From NCBI GenBank assembly GCA_021783135.1, contig JAJXUE010000015.1, positions 1 to 61,243 of the forward strand: 61,243 nucleotides of DNA. Reading direction: 5' to 3'. The DNA is from Bacillota bacterium. Its GTDB lineage: Bacteria > Bacillota > Desulfitobacteriia > Desulfitobacteriales > JAJXUE01. Shown one piece after another: positions 21,549 through 30,773 of this stretch. The number at the start of each line of letters is the position of its first letter. Position 1 is the first letter of the stretch. A program made the position numbers and the translations under genes. The notes beneath the pieces were generated by a model that searched no databases, was not told where the DNA came from, and saw nothing but the letters and a program-made list of their open reading frames with translations.

Positions 21549-22664
21549 ATGAAAGATCCCCGAATTGACAAGCTAGCAAAAAATTTGATTAATTACTCCG
21601 TCAAACTTCAGCCCGGTGAGAAAATCTTGATCGAAGCGATTGGTTTAGAATTCCCGTTATTGCAAGCCGTAATCAAAGAAGCATATGCAGCAGGCGGTAC
21701 GCCCTTTGTGACGATTAAAAATCATCAAGTGCTGCGCGAGTTGTTGCTGGAAACTTCGGTTGAGCAATTACAGCAGATGGCTACTTATGAAGCGGCCAGA
21801 ATGAAGGATATGGATGCCTATATTGGGATACGGTCAGGCGAGAATATTACCGAACTATCTGATGTGCCTGCCGAAAAAATGGCTCTGTATTTTGAACATC
21901 TGCAAAAAGTTGTCCATAGTGAGATTCGGGTCCCACACACCAAATGGGTTGTGCTGCGTTATCCGAGCTTTTCAATGGCACAACTTGCTGGTATGAGCAC
22001 AGAGGCGTTCCAAGACTTCTATTTTGACGTGTGCAATTTAGATTACGCTAAGATGTCAGGAGCAATGGATAGTTTAGTACGTTTAATGGAGCAAACTGAC
22101 CGGGTCAGATTGGTAGGCCCGGGCACAGATTTAAGTTTTTCGATCAAGGGGTTGCCGGCAATCAAATGCGCTGGTGAGTTGAACATACCTGACGGGGAAG
22201 TTTTTTCAGCACCGGTAAAGGATAGCGTCAATGGGTTTATTACCTATAATACGCCGGCAGTGTATCAAGGGTATACGTTTGAAAATATTCGCCTCGAGTT
22301 TGCGGCCGGAAAAATCATTCAAGCCACTGCAAACGACTCTGCAAGAATTACCCAAGTCTTTGACACAGATGCAGGTGCTCGCTACGTAGGCGAGTTTGCC
22401 ATTGGTATCAACCCATATATTACGAAGCCAATGAAAGATACCTTGTTTGATGAAAAAATTATGGGTAGTTTTCATTTCACTCCCGGCAGCTCCTATGATG
22501 AATGCTTCAATGGGAACAAATCAGCAGTCCACTGGGACTTGGTTTGTATTCAAACACCGGAGTATGGCGGTGGAGAAATTTATTTTGATGACGTCTTGAT
22601 CCGCAAGGATGGTGCTTTTGTTTTGCCGGAGTTACAATGTTTAAATCCGGAAAATCTTAAATAA
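21549..22664 (+). CDS. Aminopeptidase, M29 (thermophilic, AmpS/PepS) family
   Basis: This 371-aa cytoplasmic metallo-aminopeptidase has M29 features: LVGPGTDLSFSIKG, IPDGEVFSAPV, FVEF-like metal ligands in the C-terminal half (YVGEFAIGINPYIT, HFTPGSSYDECFNGN, HWDLV). It trims N-terminal residues from peptides using Co/Zn/Mg. AAAGGAG precedes the ATG. The palindrome just upstream suggests its own regulator, and a very strong terminator follows, so it is monocistronic. Length is normal for the short M29 branch. Confidence 0.9.
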   Translation: MKDPRIDKLAKNLINYSVKLQPGEKILIEAIGLEFPLLQAVIKEAYAAGGTPFVTIKNHQVLRELLLETSVEQLQQMATYEAARMKDMDAYIGIRSGENITELSDVPAEKMALYFEHLQKVVHSEIRVPHTKWVVLRYPSFSMAQLAGMSTEAFQDFYFDVCNLDYAKMSGAMDSLVRLMEQTDRVRLVGPGTDLSFSIKGLPAIKCAGELNIPDGEVFSAPVKDSVNGFITYNTPAVYQGYTFENIRLEFAAGKIIQATANDSARITQVFDTDAGARYVGEFAIGINPYITKPMKDTLFDEKIMGSFHFTPGSSYDECFNGNKSAVHWDLVCIQTPEYGGGEIYFDDVLIRKDGAFVLPELQCLNPENLK

Positions 22665-22674
22665 CCTATCATCC

Positions 22675-22728
22675 AAAAATACGCGCAGCTGGCTACCTTA
22701 CATTGTAAGGCCAGCTGCGCGTATTTTT
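22675..22728 (+). terminator. Strong Rho-independent terminator after aminopeptidase gene
   Basis: An 18-bp or longer perfect stem runs AAATACGCGCAGCTGGC to GCCAGCTGCGCGTATTT, with an inner CCTTACA/TGTAAGG hairpin, and ends in T5. A matching A-run on the left makes it bidirectional. Confidence 0.95.
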
Positions 22729-22903
22729 GTGCAGATCGTTTGTGCATATTCCATAATTGCTTGATGTACAGTGGCAAAATATAAACGCTAAAATAAAAGT
22801 GAGCCAAAAATAAGGAAAACGCCAGGAAAAAAGTGAGCCACTTCTAATAAAAAACCTGTATAGTTCAGAAGGTAAGAATAGCTGACGTACAGGGGGAGAA
22901 AGG

Positions 22904-24373
22904 GTGTCAATTGAAGTGGACATTTACGAAAAAATACGCTACTTGCATGAGCACGAAGGCAAATCACAAAGAGCAATATCCACACTGCTTGGGATATCCC
23001 GCAATACGGTAAAGAAATACTGTGAGGGATCACAGGTCCCCTGGGAGCGTCAAGGAACAAGTGGCCGTCAGCGATATATGGTAACCGATGAGATTATGGA
23101 TTTCATCAAGAGTTGCCTTGAGACGGATGAACTCGAAAACATTAAGAAACAGAAACACACCGCCAAGCGGATATATGACCGCCTTGTGCAGGAGAAAGGC
23201 TTCAAGGGCGGAGAATCAACCATACGCGAAATCGTAGCTAAACTTAAGGACAAACAGCCGAAAGTATTTGTGCCATTAGCCTATGATCCGGGAGAAGCGA
23301 TTCAGATCGACTGGGGTGAGGCAACAGTATACTTGAGCGGCAAAAAAATGAAGGTAAACTTGTTTTGCATGCGGGAGTGCTACAGTGCGGATATGTTCTG
23401 TAAAGCTTTCTACCGCCAGAATGAAGAAAGTTTTCTGGAAGGCCAGATCTCTGGATTCGACTATTTCGAAGGTGCCCCGAAACGACTTATATTTGACAAC
23501 GCCAAAGTGGCGGTAAAAGAGGGTTTTGGTGTTCATGCAAAGCCCCAGGATAGATACAAGGCTTTAGCCGCCCACTATGCTTTTCAATGTAAATTCTGCA
23601 ATATTGCAGCAGGCCACGAAAAAAGCTTGGTAGAGGGACTCGTGGGCTGGGTAAGGAGGAATATCTTAGTACCAATCCCCCGAGTGGAAACGATCGATGA
23701 GCTAAACGCGGAAATTTTACGCAGATGCCTGAAATACCGTGAGCATAGGATAGCCGGCCGGGATCAGACCGTCGGTGAGATGGCACTGACTACTAGGGTA
23801 AGGCTAACAAAATTACCAAGGTATAGATTCGACCCAAGCAAGAGCATAACGCAAAGAGTGAGCGATTTCTCAACGGTGAGATTTGATTACAACCACTACT
23901 CTGTGCCGGTCAAATATGCCGACAAAGAAGTCAGCATCAAGGGTTACGGCAATGAAGTAGTGATGATATACAGAAACAGCGAGATAGCCAGATATCCCCG
24001 TTGTTATGAACGAGGTCAAACCAAATACCGCCTGGAACATTACATAGACTTGATTGAAAAGCGCCCCCGCAGTGTTTTCAATGCCAAGCCGGTTAAGAAC
24101 AACCTATCCACACAGCTGCTGGAGATCGGCAGAAGGCTGTCTGGGCCTAGGGAAATGGTCAAGCTCCTTAGACTTTGTGTTGACTACGGGGAGGACAAGA
24201 TTCTAGCAACCGTTAACGCCCTTAATACTCCTGAGCTATCGGTAGAGCAGATAAGGGCCCATCTGACACCGATCAGCATACCGGAGAGGATAACTCCGGA
24301 GATTGACATCAAGGTTACAATACCGGAGTTTGACAGGTATGACGCCCTGATATACAGGGGGGTTACCATATGA
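22904..24373 (+). CDS. istA: IS21-family transposase IstA
   Basis: This 489-aa DDE transposase has an N-terminal helix-turn-helix (QRAISTLLGISRNTVKKY), a retroviral-type integrase core and a C-terminal beta domain (FSTVRFDYNHYSVPVKYADK). Catalytic residues are likely the Asp in IQIDWGEA, the Asp in LIFDNAK and the Glu in KSLVEGLV. The GTG start has GGGGAG upstream. Its stop overlaps istB by 4 bases, as is usual. It appears intact, but transposition would need a working IstB. Confidence 0.95.
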   Translation: MSIEVDIYEKIRYLHEHEGKSQRAISTLLGISRNTVKKYCEGSQVPWERQGTSGRQRYMVTDEIMDFIKSCLETDELENIKKQKHTAKRIYDRLVQEKGFKGGESTIREIVAKLKDKQPKVFVPLAYDPGEAIQIDWGEATVYLSGKKMKVNLFCMRECYSADMFCKAFYRQNEESFLEGQISGFDYFEGAPKRLIFDNAKVAVKEGFGVHAKPQDRYKALAAHYAFQCKFCNIAAGHEKSLVEGLVGWVRRNILVPIPRVETIDELNAEILRRCLKYREHRIAGRDQTVGEMALTTRVRLTKLPRYRFDPSKSITQRVSDFSTVRFDYNHYSVPVKYADKEVSIKGYGNEVVMIYRNSEIARYPRCYERGQTKYRLEHYIDLIEKRPRSVFNAKPVKNNLSTQLLEIGRRLSGPREMVKLLRLCVDYGEDKILATVNALNTPELSVEQIRAHLTPISIPERITPEIDIKVTIPEFDRYDALIYRGVTI

Positions 24374-24725
24374 GTGGACATGCCAGCGACATTAACCCCA
24401 TTAAAGAGACCATTAAGCTTTATGCCCGGCAACTTAAAACTCCGGCCTTTGTAGGCTATGAAAGTATAGTTAGGCAGCTATCCCCCGGTGACGGATACGA
24501 TAAATTTCTTAGCGAGACCATGAAGCTTGAGGTGTCGCAGCGGCAAATCGCCGGACAGAAGCGCCGGATTAAGCAGGCCGGGTTTCCTGTCATGAAGACA
24601 CTTGATGAATTCAACTACAATAGGCTGGAACATGTATCGGAATCCTATATCTGGGAGCTTGCCTCTTGTGACTTTATTAAGAACCGGCAGAATGTCGTAA
24701 TGATCGGCTGTCCAGGGGCTGGCAA
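24370..24725 (+). pseudogene. istB: istB, 5' fragment (IS21 helper ATPase, interrupted)
   Basis: The first about 118 codons of the IS21 AAA+ helper ATPase are intact up to the P-loop sequence MIGCPGAGK. There the frame runs into the left inverted repeat of the RIT element, and a stop appears at 24757-24759. The 3' part resumes at 29964. Joining the fragments at the shared TGGCAA restores a continuous P-loop (GCPGAGKSHLS), so the break is an insertion rather than decay. Confidence 0.93.
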
Positions 24726-24806
24726 TTATCGAAAGAATTTATTTATGGAAAGAAATTAGTGTTCGTCCTAGTGTTGCATAAGATGTGCTTTAATTTCTTT
24801 CCATAA
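24720..24806 (+). repeat. RIT left terminal inverted repeat (87 bp)
   Basis: The repeat itself contains a 16-bp inverted pair, TTATGGAAAGAAATTA (24743-24758) and its complement (24791-24806), around a 32-base centre. A degenerate direct copy, ATCGAAAGAATTTA, lies at 24728-24741, 17 bases before its match. These look like recombinase-binding arms. Confidence 0.95.
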
Positions 24807-24955
24807 CACCTCAGAATAGGCAATGAAATCTTGTCTATTGGAGCATTCCTGTAATAAACAAAAATGAACTTTGAATCAAAAAGCACCTCACAGTAGAATA
24901 AGGATGTGCCCAACTTGCCAGGAAAGCACAAATCCAAACTACGGAGGTACTTGAC

Positions 24956-26239
24956 ATGAAGTATACCCAGAATGAAAAGATTTTGCAAATCACTGACCAG
25001 ACCATGATTGTTGGAGTTGACATCGCGAGTGAAATCCACTACGCTCGTGCCTTTGACGGCCGCGGATTAGAAGTTGGTAAGTTGCTAAGGTTTAACAACG
25101 ACGCAGATGGTTACTCTCAGTTCACAACGTGGATCCAAGCTATCCAAGAAAGAAGCGGCAAAAGCAATGTAATGGTTGGCATGGAGCCTACCGGTCACTA
25201 CTGGTTCAATATTGCTCAGCAACTTAAGGATCACGGTATCAAGCTTGTGCTGGTGAATCCGTTTCATGTCAAAAGGAGCAAAGAACTAGACGACAACAAT
25301 CCGACCAAGAATGACCGTAAAGATCCCAAAACCATTGCAATGCTCGTCAAAGATGGCCGCTATATGGAACCGTATATACCGGAAGGTATTTACAGCGAGT
25401 TAAGGACAGCTATGGAAACTAGATGGCAGATTGTAAAGCAGTTAAACATAATCCGTAACCGGGTAAAACGATGGATAAGCATCTACTTCCCTGAGTTTAA
25501 CCAAGTCTTTGGAGACTGGGAAGGTAAGGCCGCCATGACTGTGTTACATGAGTTTTCCACTCCGGCCAAGATATCAGAAAAAGGCGTTGCAGGTATTATT
25601 GGTCGCTGGAAGCAAGATAAGCTAAGGGCTGTAGGCATTAAGCGAGCTACAGCATTGGTTGAGGCTGCTAGAACGTCTGTAGGCGTCCGTGAAGGCCTAA
25701 AGGCTGCCGAGAATGACTTGATGTTTCTGCTGCAGAACTATGAAATGTATATGCAGCAATATGAACTGACGATGGCTCTAGTGGAGCAGCTTGCTATGCA
25801 GATTCCAGGCCTTGAAGAGATGGTAAAGATCAAAGGGGTTGGCTTAATCACGGCAGCAGGCTTCATTGCGGAAGTCGGTGACATTAGCCGGTTTGAGCAT
25901 CCCCGGCAAATCCAGAAACTCGCTGGTCTAAACATAAAAGAGAACAGCTCCGGAAAGCACAAAGGCAAAAGCAGCATCAGCAAGCGAGGCAGGCGAAGGC
26001 TAAGATCACTGCTATTTCAGGCAATCATGCCAATTGTCGCCAAGAATCCAGAGTTTCGCGAACTCCATCGCTACTATACAAACAGGGACCATAATCCACT
26101 AAAGAAGAAGCAATCGTTGATACTGTTGAGCTGTAAGTTAATACGGGTATTCTTCGCCCTGCTGACTAAAGGCTCCAAATATGACCCACAGAAAATGATG
26201 AGCGATATCAGAAGACCACAACTACAGGAAGCAGCATAG
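24956..26239 (+). CDS. IS110-family transposase (DEDD type)
   Basis: This 427-aa protein has an N-terminal RuvC-like DEDD domain: GVDIASEIHYA (Asp), MVGMEPTGHYW (Glu) and KNDRKDPKTIAML (Asp, Asp). A coiled segment and a C-terminal Tnp20-type domain follow, with IKGVGLITAAGFIAEVGD and the catalytic-serine region KGKSSISKRGRRRLR. GGAGG precedes the ATG. Enzymes of this family use a non-coding bridge/seek RNA from their own element to choose target sites. It appears full length. Confidence 0.93.
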   Translation: MKYTQNEKILQITDQTMIVGVDIASEIHYARAFDGRGLEVGKLLRFNNDADGYSQFTTWIQAIQERSGKSNVMVGMEPTGHYWFNIAQQLKDHGIKLVLVNPFHVKRSKELDDNNPTKNDRKDPKTIAMLVKDGRYMEPYIPEGIYSELRTAMETRWQIVKQLNIIRNRVKRWISIYFPEFNQVFGDWEGKAAMTVLHEFSTPAKISEKGVAGIIGRWKQDKLRAVGIKRATALVEAARTSVGVREGLKAAENDLMFLLQNYEMYMQQYELTMALVEQLAMQIPGLEEMVKIKGVGLITAAGFIAEVGDISRFEHPRQIQKLAGLNIKENSSGKHKGKSSISKRGRRRLRSLLFQAIMPIVAKNPEFRELHRYYTNRDHNPLKKKQSLILLSCKLIRVFFALLTKGSKYDPQKMMSDIRRPQLQEAA

Positions 26240-26520
26240 ACACAACAAGAACAATAGACAGTAAGACATTCAAGATAGCACATTGACAAAACGAGCCGGG
26301 ATTAGTTAGGTTGAATATTTTCCATAAGGGCATAGACCCAGTATTGGAGCATGACTAACATCCACCTCATGGATAGGCAGAACGAAGGAATTTAGGGCAA
26401 GGACCCTGCGAGACATGGGAGGGTTGCCACCGGAGAGCATGTGGATACCAACGGCCAAAATAAGCTGAAAATACTAGACGCTTATTTAGGTGCACCCATG
26501 CCCATCCAGTTTAATGCATA
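26240..26520 (+). ncRNA. Candidate bridge/seek RNA region of the IS110-family element
   Basis: This long non-coding stretch after the transposase stop contains several short hairpins, for example ATCCA/TGGAT at 26360-26374 and GGCA..ACCCT / AGGGT..TGCC at 26396-26428. A downstream position suits the IS1111 subgroup. The RNA's ends and guide loops are not resolved here. Confidence 0.45.
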
Positions 26521-26620
26521 AATGAGTATAATATCCATGTGGCTTGTTTTAAGAAATGTGTAATTCTAAGAAAATGCGAGTAAACACGAGAAATCTTTAG
26601 ATTATAGAGGGAGGTAGGTT

Positions 26621-27862
26621 ATGGAAATGAGAAAGCCAATTGAGGTACTAGCCACAGATGTTGTCAAAGAACTCAAGCGACTCAATTACGCATACAACAC
26701 CATATGCGGGTTGCGAGCATCGTTCAAGAGAATTTGTGCCTTTGCGCGGGACAAAGGTGAGTTGCACTTCTCTGAAAATCTCGGTAAGGAGTATCTTAGA
26801 GAAAGATATGGATGTACAACGGACTATTATTTGGAACCCTTCCCTAAGAAAGCAAAAGAAGCTATCCGGTCAATCCGACTTCTGGGAGATTTTCAACTTC
26901 ATGGCTTTATCATTCGCAGAATCGTAAAGCGAAAGGGATACGTAAAGCCGCCACAGTTCGAGGAAGTTCTGACCGCTTACGAGAGAGAATGCGCAAACAA
27001 TGAATACTCTATTCGAGGAATGCGCACCAGACTCCAGCGATTATTCTTTTTTGTCGATTATCTTTCACTGCGGCGCGTGACGGCTGTAGGCCACATTACG
27101 CCTAAAATCATATCGGACTACGTCATAAGCATTTGTCCAAAACACGAAAAGAGTATCGCCTCCATACTGACAACTCTAAGAGTTTTCTTGAGGTTTCTCT
27201 ATCTAAACGGGTACACCGATAAAGATTTATCCCTTAGCGTGCCAAAGCAGAACAAATACCATTACCCCACCGTACCATCAACTTGGGACCCTTCAGAAGT
27301 AAAGCGGATGCTTGATGTCATTGATCGGGGAAATCCTCGCGGAAAGCGAGACTATGCCATCCTTATTCTTGTCGCAAAGCTAGGAATACGTGTCAGTGAC
27401 ATAAAGGCCTTGAAACTTTCGAATTTGAACTGGGCTAACAAAACGATTACCATTCGGCAGGAAAAAACAAAAAACCAAGTTACATATCCAATTCTTCACG
27501 ATGTAGGTTGGGCACTAATTGATTATCTTCAAAATGCACGACCTAAGTGCGATGTGCCGTATGTGTTTGTACGTCTTAATGCTCCGTTTCAAGCCTTTGG
27601 TGAAAATGCCAACCTCCATAACATAATTACTGAATACATTCGATTGGCTGGAATTAACGTTCCTCGCGGAAAACGGCATGGGCTTCATTCACTCAGGCAC
27701 TCGCTGGCTAGCGCCCTTTTGGAACAGGGAGCGTCTCTTGCTGTTATCTCCGATATCTTGGGTCATGTAGATTCAAAATCTACTTCGGTTTATCTACATA
27801 CAGATCTTAATGGGCTAAAGGCCTGTGCGCTTGACCCCGAGGAGGTGTTCCCGAATGCCTGA
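26621..27862 (+). CDS. RIT tyrosine recombinase, first gene (RitA-like)
   Basis: This 413-aa recombinase has an N-terminal SAM-like core-binding region and a C-terminal catalytic domain. The catalytic Arg is in KLGIRVSDIKAL, the HxxR in HGLHSLRHSLASALL, the second His in ISDILGHVDSKST and the Tyr in SVYLHTD. GGGAGG precedes the ATG. It overlaps the second recombinase gene by 8 bases. The three enzymes probably act jointly on the complex terminal repeats. Confidence 0.92.
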   Translation: MEMRKPIEVLATDVVKELKRLNYAYNTICGLRASFKRICAFARDKGELHFSENLGKEYLRERYGCTTDYYLEPFPKKAKEAIRSIRLLGDFQLHGFIIRRIVKRKGYVKPPQFEEVLTAYERECANNEYSIRGMRTRLQRLFFFVDYLSLRRVTAVGHITPKIISDYVISICPKHEKSIASILTTLRVFLRFLYLNGYTDKDLSLSVPKQNKYHYPTVPSTWDPSEVKRMLDVIDRGNPRGKRDYAILILVAKLGIRVSDIKALKLSNLNWANKTITIRQEKTKNQVTYPILHDVGWALIDYLQNARPKCDVPYVFVRLNAPFQAFGENANLHNIITEYIRLAGINVPRGKRHGLHSLRHSLASALLEQGASLAVISDILGHVDSKSTSVYLHTDLNGLKACALDPEEVFPNA

Positions 27863-28841
27863 AAACCTAGGGTTTCGGAGCGTACTAGCCGTGCTAATTA
27901 AGAACTATATTGCAGAAAAACAAGCTGTAGGCTACAAATTCGCAAAAGGAGCTGATATGTTAAGGAGTTTCGACTCCTTTGTGTTCAGTCGAGGCTTGAA
28001 AGTGACAGCTTTAACAAAACAAATGGTTATTGAGTGGACCGCTCGCAGGCCGAATGAGACCGTTTCGACACAATGTCGTAGGATTTCATTGTTGCGGGGA
28101 CTGGCGGCATACTTAAATCGTATAGGTTATCCTGCGTATGTTTATCCCAGAGCGATGGTCACCGTGGATCGATACACCTATATTCCGTACATATTTTCAA
28201 GTGACGAAATGAAAAGGATCTTTGATGTGTGCGACCACTACAGACCGAATGGCGTAACGCCAAATCGACATTTGGTTATGCCGCTTTTAATCCGCATACT
28301 CTATGGATGTGGACTCCGGATTTCCGAGGCAATGAACTTAACTCTCCAGAATGTTGACCTTAACAAAGGCTACTTGTACATCAAAAATGCAAAGTTCAAC
28401 AAAGAGCGTATACTGCCAATGGCAGACAGTCTAACGGAACGATGCCGGGAGTACTGGGCAAATGTCAGTATTGGAAAGATAGGCAATCCGTTTTTCTTCC
28501 CGTCGCCATATGGCGGTCATTATTCCGAGTCAACCATTTATAAACTCTTTAGAGCGATACTTAGAATAGCCAAGATTTCACACCTGGGGAGGGGAAAAGG
28601 CCCCCGAATTCACGATGTCCGGCATACCTTCGCAGTTAATTGCCTAAAGAATTGGGTCCTAGACGGAAGGGATCTTAACAATTGTCTTCCCTATCTCTCT
28701 TCATATCTTGGCCATGAAGATCTGCGTGGCAGTCAGAGATACTTGCGGCTAACTGCTGAGTTGTACCCAGACATAACAAGCAAGATCGAGAAGACTTGTT
28801 CATACATCATTCCGGAGGTGGAATTGTATGAAGCAGACTGA
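27855..28841 (+). CDS. RIT tyrosine recombinase, second gene (RitB-like)
   Basis: This 328-aa recombinase has Arg in YGCGLRISEAMNLTL, HDVRHTFAVNCL, a spaced insert (GRDLNNCLPYL), then YLGHEDLRGSQRYLRLT with the catalytic Tyr. GAGGTG upstream supports ATG 27855, giving an 8-base overlap with the first gene. The 10-codon upstream extension is unlikely. It overlaps the third gene by 14 bases. Confidence 0.92.
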   Translation: MPENLGFRSVLAVLIKNYIAEKQAVGYKFAKGADMLRSFDSFVFSRGLKVTALTKQMVIEWTARRPNETVSTQCRRISLLRGLAAYLNRIGYPAYVYPRAMVTVDRYTYIPYIFSSDEMKRIFDVCDHYRPNGVTPNRHLVMPLLIRILYGCGLRISEAMNLTLQNVDLNKGYLYIKNAKFNKERILPMADSLTERCREYWANVSIGKIGNPFFFPSPYGGHYSESTIYKLFRAILRIAKISHLGRGKGPRIHDVRHTFAVNCLKNWVLDGRDLNNCLPYLSSYLGHEDLRGSQRYLRLTAELYPDITSKIEKTCSYIIPEVELYEAD

Positions 28842-29853
28842 TTTTGCGAGGACGCTTGCGAGTTATCTGACGGATTTTTTGCCTGGACAGAGAAATGTAA
28901 GCATTAACACGATTAAATCCTATCGCGATACCTTCAAGCAATACCTCATGTTCATGCGGGAGGAAAAAGGAATCAAGCCAGAAACTATTTCATTTGTATA
29001 TGTAACGGCGCCGAACATAAAAGACTTTTTGCAATGGCTCGAGACCTCCAAAAATGTGACTACTAGCACCCGGAATCAGCGACTCGCTGCTGTTCACAGC
29101 TTCTTCAGATATGCTCAGACTGAGAATCCAGAGATCCTGTTCGAAAGCCAAAAGATTCTCGGCATGCCGTTTAAGAAAAAGCAGCAACAGACCATACCGC
29201 ATCTATCTATGAATCAATTGGCATATCTATTCGAACAGCCTGATACAACCACTAAAAGGGGACGTAGAGACTTGGCCTTAATTGTCCTCTTATATGATGC
29301 CGGTGCGAGAGTACAGGAGTTGATCGACCTAAAGGTCTGTGAGGCGAGACTGGCCAACCCTGCAACAATTACGCTGACAGGCAAAGGCAACAAGAAGAGG
29401 AACATCCCAATCATGTCTAAAACTCGAAACCTTCTTCAAGGCTACATGGATGAAAACCACCTACTCGAAAACGGTCGGCAACAAAGCCCTCTGTTTTGCA
29501 ACAGCAGATACCAGGCGTTTACAAGACCAGGTATTACATACATCCTAAATAAGTACTTCAAGCAGGCAAAGCTCAGCCACAATGACGAGGTTTTCCCGGA
29601 TAGGCTCCATCCGCACATGCTAAGACACTCAAAAGCCCTTCATCTCTTGGAATCCGGTGTGAACCTGCTTTATATTCGCGACTTATTAGGGCATGTTAGT
29701 GTGACTACAACCGAAATTTACTTAAAATTTGATACAGAACTTAAGAGAAAGGCTTTGGAAGCTGCATATCCCCAAATAATAATTGGGGAAGTTCCTGAAT
29801 GGGAGGTAAACTCCGATATCCTTCAGTGGCTACAGAACCTCTGTCGCCCTTGA
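28828..29853 (+). CDS. RIT tyrosine recombinase, third gene (RitC-like)
   Basis: This 341-aa XerC/D-like recombinase has an N-terminal core-binding domain (NTIKSYRDTFKQYLMFM), Arg in YDAGARVQELIDL, LHPHMLRHSKALHLL, LLGHVSVTTTEIYLKFD with the catalytic Tyr. GGAGG is upstream. The stop lies 3 bases before the right inverted repeat. It is the most XerCD-like of the trio. Confidence 0.93.
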   Translation: MKQTDFARTLASYLTDFLPGQRNVSINTIKSYRDTFKQYLMFMREEKGIKPETISFVYVTAPNIKDFLQWLETSKNVTTSTRNQRLAAVHSFFRYAQTENPEILFESQKILGMPFKKKQQQTIPHLSMNQLAYLFEQPDTTTKRGRRDLALIVLLYDAGARVQELIDLKVCEARLANPATITLTGKGNKKRNIPIMSKTRNLLQGYMDENHLLENGRQQSPLFCNSRYQAFTRPGITYILNKYFKQAKLSHNDEVFPDRLHPHMLRHSKALHLLESGVNLLYIRDLLGHVSVTTTEIYLKFDTELKRKALEAAYPQIIIGEVPEWEVNSDILQWLQNLCRP

Positions 29854-29856
29854 TTA

Positions 29857-29943
29857 TTATGGAAAGAAATTAAAGCACATCTTATGCAACACTAGGACGA
29901 ACACTAATTTCTTTCCATAAATAAATTCTTTCGATAATTGCCA
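29857..29943 (-). repeat. RIT right terminal inverted repeat (87 bp)
   Basis: It is the exact reverse complement of 24720-24806. It abuts a palindromic host-junction stretch that has no counterpart at the left end. Confidence 0.95.
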
Positions 29944-29969
29944 TTATGTAAAGCTTTACATAATGGCAA
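29938..29969. repeat. 32-bp perfect palindrome at the RIT right junction
   Basis: Half TTGCCATTATGTAAAG (29938-29953) is followed by its exact complement (29954-29969). It overlaps the right repeat tip by 6 bases and ends with TGGCAA of the host gene. It is absent at the left junction, so it is either part of the element's right end, a recombination scar, or an attachment site. Confidence 0.9.
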
Positions 29970-30381
29970 AAGCCACTTGTCCATCGGGTTAGGCATGAAA
30001 GCCTGCTATGCCGGTTTTAACGTCAAATTCTACACAGCAATGAACCTGGCCAACGAGCTGGCGGAGGCCATCCAATTTCACCGTCTATCGAAGCTTGAAA
30101 AAGCCATGGCGAGGATTGACTTACTGATCATTGACGAACTCAGCTACCTTACCTTCAACCGTCATCAGTCTGAAATGTTGTTTCAGGTAATATCCGAGCG
30201 TTCGGAACGGGGGAGCATTATATTAAGCACCAACCTTGAATTCTCCCGCTGGACGGAGTTGTTCGAGAATGAAATCATGGTCGCTGCCTTAATAGACCGA
30301 ATAACCTTCCGTTCCCATGTGTTAGACATGAACGTCAAGGATTCCTACCGGCTGGAACAGACCCTGACCAAAGCAAACTAG
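29964..30381 (+). pseudogene. istB: istB, 3' fragment (IS21 helper ATPase, interrupted)
   Basis: The reading frame resumes in the P-loop (GKSHLSIGLGMKACYAG) and continues through Walker B (LLIIDELSYL) and the family end (DRITFRSHVLDM) to a normal stop. It lacks its own start because the RIT element precedes it. Protein quality is high, so the disruption is recent. Confidence 0.92.
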
Positions 30382-30408
30382 GTTAAAACCAGGCAGTCAG
30401 CCGGCCGC

Positions 30409-30461
30409 GCGCCTGTAAAATCTCCACTCGGGCTACGCCCTCCTTCCGATTTTACAGGCGC
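30409..30461 (+). terminator. Long hairpin downstream of istB
   Basis: GCGCCTGTAAAATC (30409-30422) pairs perfectly with GATTTTACAGGCGC (30448-30461). An inner GGGC/GCCC hairpin fills the 25-base loop. No T-run follows, so it may be an IS21-internal structure rather than a classical terminator. Confidence 0.6.
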
Positions 30462-30773
30462 ATATTAATATCGGTAAGTGGCGCAATATTTACCCAGCGT
30501 TTTAACCTAATATGGCTCACTTTTTTACTGGCGTTAGTGGCTCAACTTTTTTCTGGCGGGTGGCTCACTTTTCTATTGACAATCGCAGGCAAAAGCCATG
30601 ATTATGATAATTCATCTAATTTATATCTAATCTTCATGTTCATTTAAACGAGTTTTAATTTAATAAACCTAAACTTAGTAATAGTAAATCACAATTAGAC
30701 TTCAAATTAATTAGACTCGAATTTACGCATCAATATGTTCAAACGTTGGAGAATGAAAGTTGGAGGTAGTTAA

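Follow-up and report, generated by a model that had tools for sequence, protein, structure and literature searches.

Knowledge of RIT elements goes back to about 2009. The name stands for recombinase in trio and applies to the ritABC genes of Cupriavidus metallidurans and their relatives (PMC3414803, PMC2864759). Such elements have been recorded in radC, in an IS66 transposase gene and in a Tn6049-type transposase gene (PMC3414803, PMC2864759), and two core-binding domains have been reported for RitA (PMC8138268). The inverted repeat of these elements, with its overlapping palindrome, did not fit the usual site models (PMC3414803). Target specificity and movement were given as not tested (PMC10214605), and neither a target rule, nor an attachment-site model, nor an explanation for the presence of three recombinases is offered in PMC3414803 and PMC2864759.

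The locus described here belongs to a stretch of 61,243 nucleotides from a member of the Bacillota, the whole of which is referred to as the window. Its recombinase trio shares with the published RITs the fixed gene order, the gene overlaps, the length of ~3.5 kb and the terminal inverted repeat with an overlapping palindrome. Location inside another transposon is likewise known for published RITs, as is location in radC (PMC3414803, PMC2864759). The copy in the window differs from them by carrying an IS110-family element.

A nest of three mobile elements

The preliminary description of the window, made from its letters alone, read positions 22765-30581 as an IS110-family element inside a RIT inside an IS21 element. 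All three layers, which lie on the forward strand, were matched by protein profiles and open frames. The outermost one, the IS21-family host (22780-30581), has only approximate ends, the end position being set by comparison with an intact relative from Peptoclostridium (L194). Multiple terminal repeats of the AAAGTGAGCCA type are present at both ends (22783-22850 and 30513-30578); no target duplication was recognised. Two hairpins were seen near these limits, namely a terminator-like perfect 20-bp inverted repeat with a 16-bp loop (22674-22729), which follows the gene at 21549-22664 and adjoins the left end, and a 14-bp perfect hairpin (GCGCCTGTAAAATC; 30409-30461) between istB and the right-end repeats.

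The istA gene (22904-24373; 489 aa; 229 bits to the NCBIfam IS21 profile) is open throughout, as had been claimed, and its stop overlaps the start of istB at 24370-24373. The 5' part of istB (24370-24725; IstB_IS21 profile positions 28-105) stops inside the Walker A motif, between GCPGAG and K, and the 3' part (29970-30381; positions 104-235) begins with SHLSIGLG. The two pieces had been said to rejoin seamlessly upon removal of 24726-29969. Joining 24725 to 29970 indeed yields ...IGCPGAGK/SHLSIGLG..., a single frame of 255 aa in which the Walker A motif of IstB is regained. The rejoined DNA aligns to the uninterrupted Peptoclostridium IS21 as one segment across the junction (67.7% over 501 columns), and the protein also aligns as one segment (59.6%). 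Related IS21 copies without the rejoined istB sequence, which would have refuted the nest, are thus not what was found: the intact relative has an uninterrupted istB. No second copy of either the RIT or the IS21 was detected in the genome of origin, so that it contains no empty site; the search for one, as proposed in the preliminary description, was satisfied only by the Peptoclostridium relative. In sum, the host is like other IS21-family members in having istA, istB and multiple terminal repeats, and differs in that its ends are placed only approximately and in the break of istB at Walker A.

The RIT occupies 24726-29963 and measures ~3.47 kb without the IS110 element. It encodes three tyrosine recombinases with Phage_integrase domains, RitA (26621-27862; 413 aa), RitB (27825-28841; 338 aa) and RitC (28828-29853; 341 aa). 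The genes overlap by 38 and 14 bp and are colinear with the trios of other genomes; the catalytic motifs R, H-x-x-R and Y are intact in each protein. The 87-bp inverted arms, described earlier as perfect, are exact complements. The left one (24720-24806) has the core half-site TTATCGAAAG and the inner sites TTATGGAAAG / CTTTCCATAA, and the right one (29857-29943) has the core half-site CTTTCGATAA and the inner spacer TTGCCA; a 16-bp internal inverted pair is contained in each. Parsing of RIT ends identified a crossover spacer, TGGCAA, with a left copy in the Gly-Lys codons of the P-loop (24720-24725) and a right copy at 29964-29969. Between the right arm and the right spacer lies a 20-bp palindrome, TTATGTAAAGCTTTACATAA (29944-29963), which provides half-sites for two inverted crossover sites. 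The perfect 32-bp palindrome at 29938-29969 is part of the RIT. Eight of the nine TTATNNAAAG/CTTTNNATAA sites in the whole window fall within the RIT ends. With adjacent, overlapping ritA-ritB-ritC genes, terminal inverted repeats, a palindrome at one end and a length of ~3.5 kb, the trio meets the criteria of a RIT.

The trio might still be a piece of some larger, unrelated integrated element or of a phage, since GInts also have three genes of the tyrosine recombinase type and Tn554-like elements have several. However, RIT ends directly border the trio on both sides, the IS110 element is the sole cargo, and relatives are complete at ~3.45 kb, which fits the published length of ~3.5 kb. We therefore practically dismiss this explanation, which the preliminary description had named as a possible refutation, and regard the trio as a free-standing RIT. 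Eight records of a phage collection (H98-H105), all gut 'Bacteriophage sp.' and several of them just 4-6 kb long, encode a RitC relative and are possibly RIT elements that were deposited as phages.

The innermost layer (24840-26613) is located in the leader of ritA. Its transposase (24956-26239; 427 aa; 219.7 bits to NF033542) combines the DEDD and Transposase_20 domains, in agreement with the earlier assignment to the IS110 family. Close relatives of the RIT (L028-L032) are IS110-free, similar in length to the window RIT minus its insertion, and have an uninterrupted ritA leader, for example ...TCTATTGGAGGTAAGCCATGG in L028. In the window the leader reads TCTATTGGAG/CATTCC ... TTATAGAG/GGAGGTAGG. 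Three identical copies of a related IS110 element in another genome have the common right end TTATAGGGAGG, which implies that the window element spans ~24840-26613 with GGAG at both edges (24840-24843 and 26610-26613). Judged from these comparisons, the IS110 element was the last arrival in the RIT and left the ribosome-binding site of ritA in place; GGAG of this ribosome-binding site is inferred, from one site only, to be the target core. A conserved non-coding stretch of ~370 nt follows the transposase gene on its 3' side. The element thus shares DEDD, Transposase_20 and the long conserved 3' non-coding stretch with IS110-family members of the IS1111-type layout, and an Rfam search for a guide (bridge) RNA in it gave no match.

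Two further observations concern IS110-type elements. A lone 37-bp match (92%) to the right end, terminating in TTATAGAGGGAGG, is present in another contig of the same genome (C47:8883-8919; L005 1501-1537), just upstream of the start of another gene. This match, near the ritA leader, was considered as another RIT, a reading that was dropped; it is likely what is left of an IS110-type element that had inserted at a ribosome-binding site. The RIT on a Paraburkholderia sabiae plasmid (L185) has an IS110-family transposase gene beside its recombinases and pieces of a group II intron maturase nearby.

The three layers and the proposed order of arrival, IS21, then RIT, then IS110, hold. The claim that the insertion was recent stands on weaker ground: the intact frames and identical arms give it weak support, but the genome has just one copy of the RIT, and RitC of the closest relative is 83% identical.

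Targets of related RIT elements

The nearest RIT among the relatives searched, from Heliorestis (74% DNA identity), breaks istB at the same glycine-lysine codon, in a host IS21 whose IstA is just 35% identical to that of the window. RIT loci were therefore collected from genome contigs, and the ends of 80 loci out of 547 confirmed stretches were parsed. About one-third of the loci lacked a flank or an assigned target, and the plasmid RITs L184, L185, L186, L188-L190 and L193 were not parsed by the end model. Comparison of the loci showed that all intact RITs in the sample have one layout, target - 6-bp spacer - TTATNNNNAG ... CTNNNNATAA - spacer - TTATNNNNAGCTNNNNATAA - spacer - target, including the 20-bp palindrome at one end. 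Joining of the flanks produced open frames with the junction at a conserved motif. Many RIT contigs are 3.39-3.56 kb long (L028, L036, L038, L045, L056, L083, L088, L094, L100, L103 and L106) and end almost exactly at the element ends, as expected for multicopy elements collapsed by assemblers.

Within the 80-locus sample, 20 RITs of the window's clade occupy the same Walker A codon of istB (G^K[ST], with ^ marking the junction); rejoined frames include GPPGVG^KTHLA, GAPGTG^KSHLA and GPVGTG^KSHLA. Their hosts are Bacillota and metagenome-assembled genomes of Atribacteria, Lentisphaerae, Spirochaetaceae and Deltaproteobacteria. The host IstBs have a median pairwise identity of 35%, which indicates that the insertions at istB were independent. 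What the preliminary description overlooked is that, as far as these comparisons go, the insertion site in istB is a clade-specific target and not an accident.

The same position could also be explained if the RIT were a co-inherited module of certain IS21 elements, travelling with them and not inserting repeatedly. The constant position inside IS21 in the window's clade would be expected under this explanation. It does not agree with the divergence of the host IstBs, as compared with ~60-83% RitC identity among the nearest members, nor with the occurrence of both RIT orientations and of an intact IS21 relative without a RIT. Moreover, two RITs with identical RitC (L020 and L021) reside in two different group II intron reverse transcriptase genes, both at PQ^GG, of one complete single-contig genome. 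Co-inheritance is accordingly very hard to credit. Repeated site-specific insertion is preferred, and RIT mobility, comprising excision and integration, is inferred from the independent sites and from this same-genome pair.

Other RIT clades were found at other motifs: IstB Walker B (^DE.GY), RadC (^HNHPSG), group II intron reverse transcriptase (PQ^G[GS]..SP), DDE transposase (K^G.IE) and tyrosine recombinase (LR^H). PcfJ (H^HCVG) constitutes a further class. Pfam searches with a sample of the rejoined frames confirmed RadC, RVT_1, rve, Phage_integrase, IstB Walker B and PcfJ, and blastx matches of additional flanks ended at the same residues. Closed plasmids of Rhodococcus, Agrobacterium and Rhizobium agree with these sites (L183 and L187 in intron reverse transcriptase, L192 in IstB Walker B), so that assembly error is not the cause. 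Single or few RITs each (L105, L096, L099/L097, L073/L101, L104 and L191) were located at other conserved motifs; these targets are an AbiEii-type nucleotidyltransferase, the start region of topoisomerase III, a PcfJ-like protein (HHCVG), an amidoligase-like gene, an IS4-like transposase and an ArdC-like gene.

Mapping of 11 target classes on the RitC tree (85 rows) required 11 changes, the minimum being 10. Shuffled target labels required 35.7 changes on average, and none of 200 shuffles was as low as the observed value. A few duplicate entries from a single contig (L024/L062) and copies from the same genome (L020/L021) are included in the RitC set; they raise the clustering slightly and leave the main classes unaffected. 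Taken as comparative evidence, these data indicate that every RIT branch has the coding DNA of a single conserved motif as its target, in most cases within genes of other mobile elements.

Most of the genes hit are dispensable or mobile, and published RIT sites were taken simply as transposon hits (PMC3414803, PMC2864759). Broad insertion, with only the hits in dispensable mobile genes surviving, could therefore be proposed, the istB site being a product of ascertainment and selection. However, selection can neither put 20 insertions at one codon out of ~250 in istB, where other positions in istA or istB would do equally little harm, nor make the motif follow the recombinase tree. We consider broad insertion highly improbable, although marginally less so than co-inheritance, and retain site specificity, as shown by the comparison of loci.

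A proposed palindromic circle with two crossover sites

Our main reading, to which we assign a probability of about 0.86, is that a RIT whose clade targets the istB P-loop entered an IS21 element by site-specific integration, that the IS110 element later entered the RIT, and that the RIT moves by way of a palindromic circle with two sites. Neither a circle nor an excision event was observed, and the evidence for the mechanism is entirely comparative. The circle itself, the chemistry, the order of strand exchange and the separate roles of RitA, RitB and RitC, including which of them reads which DNA, are inferred.

When the RIT ends of the window are brought together computationally, they form a 194-bp perfect palindrome with two inverted crossover sites. 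The RIT would thus leave as a circle, at whose junction a long perfect palindrome contains two inverted, equivalent crossover sites of the type CTTTNNATAA - NGGNAA - TTATNNAAAG, flanking TTATNNAAAGCTTTNNATAA on both sides. Either site could recombine with istB via the 6-bp spacer, whose sequence corresponds to the Gly-Lys codons of Walker A. The predicted product runs N-half / RIT end ... RIT end / palindrome / C-half, and ritABC may point either way in it. A junction with two inverted sites should allow entry of ritABC in either orientation and keep the target polarity fixed. Comparison of the loci revealed both orientations, in a ratio of 19:19 at the targets, and in the rejoined istB Walker A cases the N-half adjoins the RIT end and the C-half adjoins the palindrome. 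Since the insertion removes the Walker A lysine, the host IS21 should be disabled; this loss of mobility is inferred.

The unused inverted site would remain in the integrated RIT and could recombine once more with a second istB. Such an event would swap flanks between two IS21 copies. A two-site circle is therefore expected to give RITs between two istB 5' halves (N-RIT-N) and, reciprocally, a bare palindrome between two 3' halves (C-palindrome-C). RITs between two 5' halves were identified in L029, L037, L039 and L040, as well as in RadC (L086) and in a recombinase gene (L055). L044 was dropped as such a case because the istB piece on its left belongs to the 3' part and lies at another position. 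The bare palindrome between two istB 3' halves was first predicted and then found, by a palindrome search in genomes with such loci, in Gracilibacillus, in the genome of L040; a less clear case was detected in Desulforamulus putei, in the genome of L044. Of the genomes checked whose RITs lack the palindrome and carry an istB 5' half at one end, only two had reciprocal products. The re-paired Gracilibacillus halves N1 and C2 match an IS21 IstB as one piece over the full length (68%; tblastn against plasmids), and the other re-pairing has only partial support.

Homologous recombination between inverted RIT copies, in place of a second site-specific event, might also be invoked for these arrangements, given that RITs are often present in several copies and that both orientations are found. 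It would, however, give C-palindrome-RIT-palindrome-C, and what was found is the bare palindrome between two 3' halves. Homologous recombination is thus an unlikely source that we do not exclude, and a second site-specific recombination is favoured.

The wobble base of the spacer at the unused site is identical to that at the outer junction in 10 of 14 cases (permutation p = 0.00035). In L030 this base is T, G and C. A strict demand for spacer homology is ruled out by L030, L049 and L058, which differ at the wobble base. This is as expected of a strand-exchange region that prefers homology without strictly needing it.

Relation to known systems

The element is of a known kind; new here are the target rule, the model of a palindromic circle with two sites, and the predicted rearrangement products. 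A clade specific for the istB P-loop and targeting of motifs by clade are not described in PMC3414803 or PMC2864759, and our literature search for a link of RITs to istB or Walker A, or for any other target rule, whose coverage did not include Ricker 2013, found nothing. The published radC cases fit the RadC target class, and the layout found here accounts for the palindrome noted in PMC3414803.

We tentatively propose, at somewhat below even odds, that RITs are specialised predators of mobile elements. Each trio lineage would have become adapted to recognise the DNA behind one conserved catalytic motif, different subunits being responsible for its own half-sites and for the foreign motif, so that one element could strike any member of a huge gene family; the spare inverted crossover site would rearrange the genome between prey copies. 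The clade-wise map of target motifs and the palindromic two-site circle together offer a direct and cheap experiment per point. They also show a way in which a tyrosine recombinase system, by recognising DNA that encodes a motif, can get at thousands of different genes, and they point to a natural brake on IS21 elements and group II introns.

GInts, SEs and Tn554-type elements resemble RITs in that several tyrosine recombinases act jointly in site-specific insertion (PMC10214605, PMC5385486). They additionally encode a fourth or accessory protein and carry cargo, whereas the RIT in the window has neither. Inteins and homing endonuclease elements insert where the DNA encodes conserved active-site motifs; because they splice out, the gene is spared. 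The RIT is similar to them in its choice of sites, but its mechanism is unrelated. Unlike inteins, it destroys the gene it enters and is thus confined to dispensable genes.
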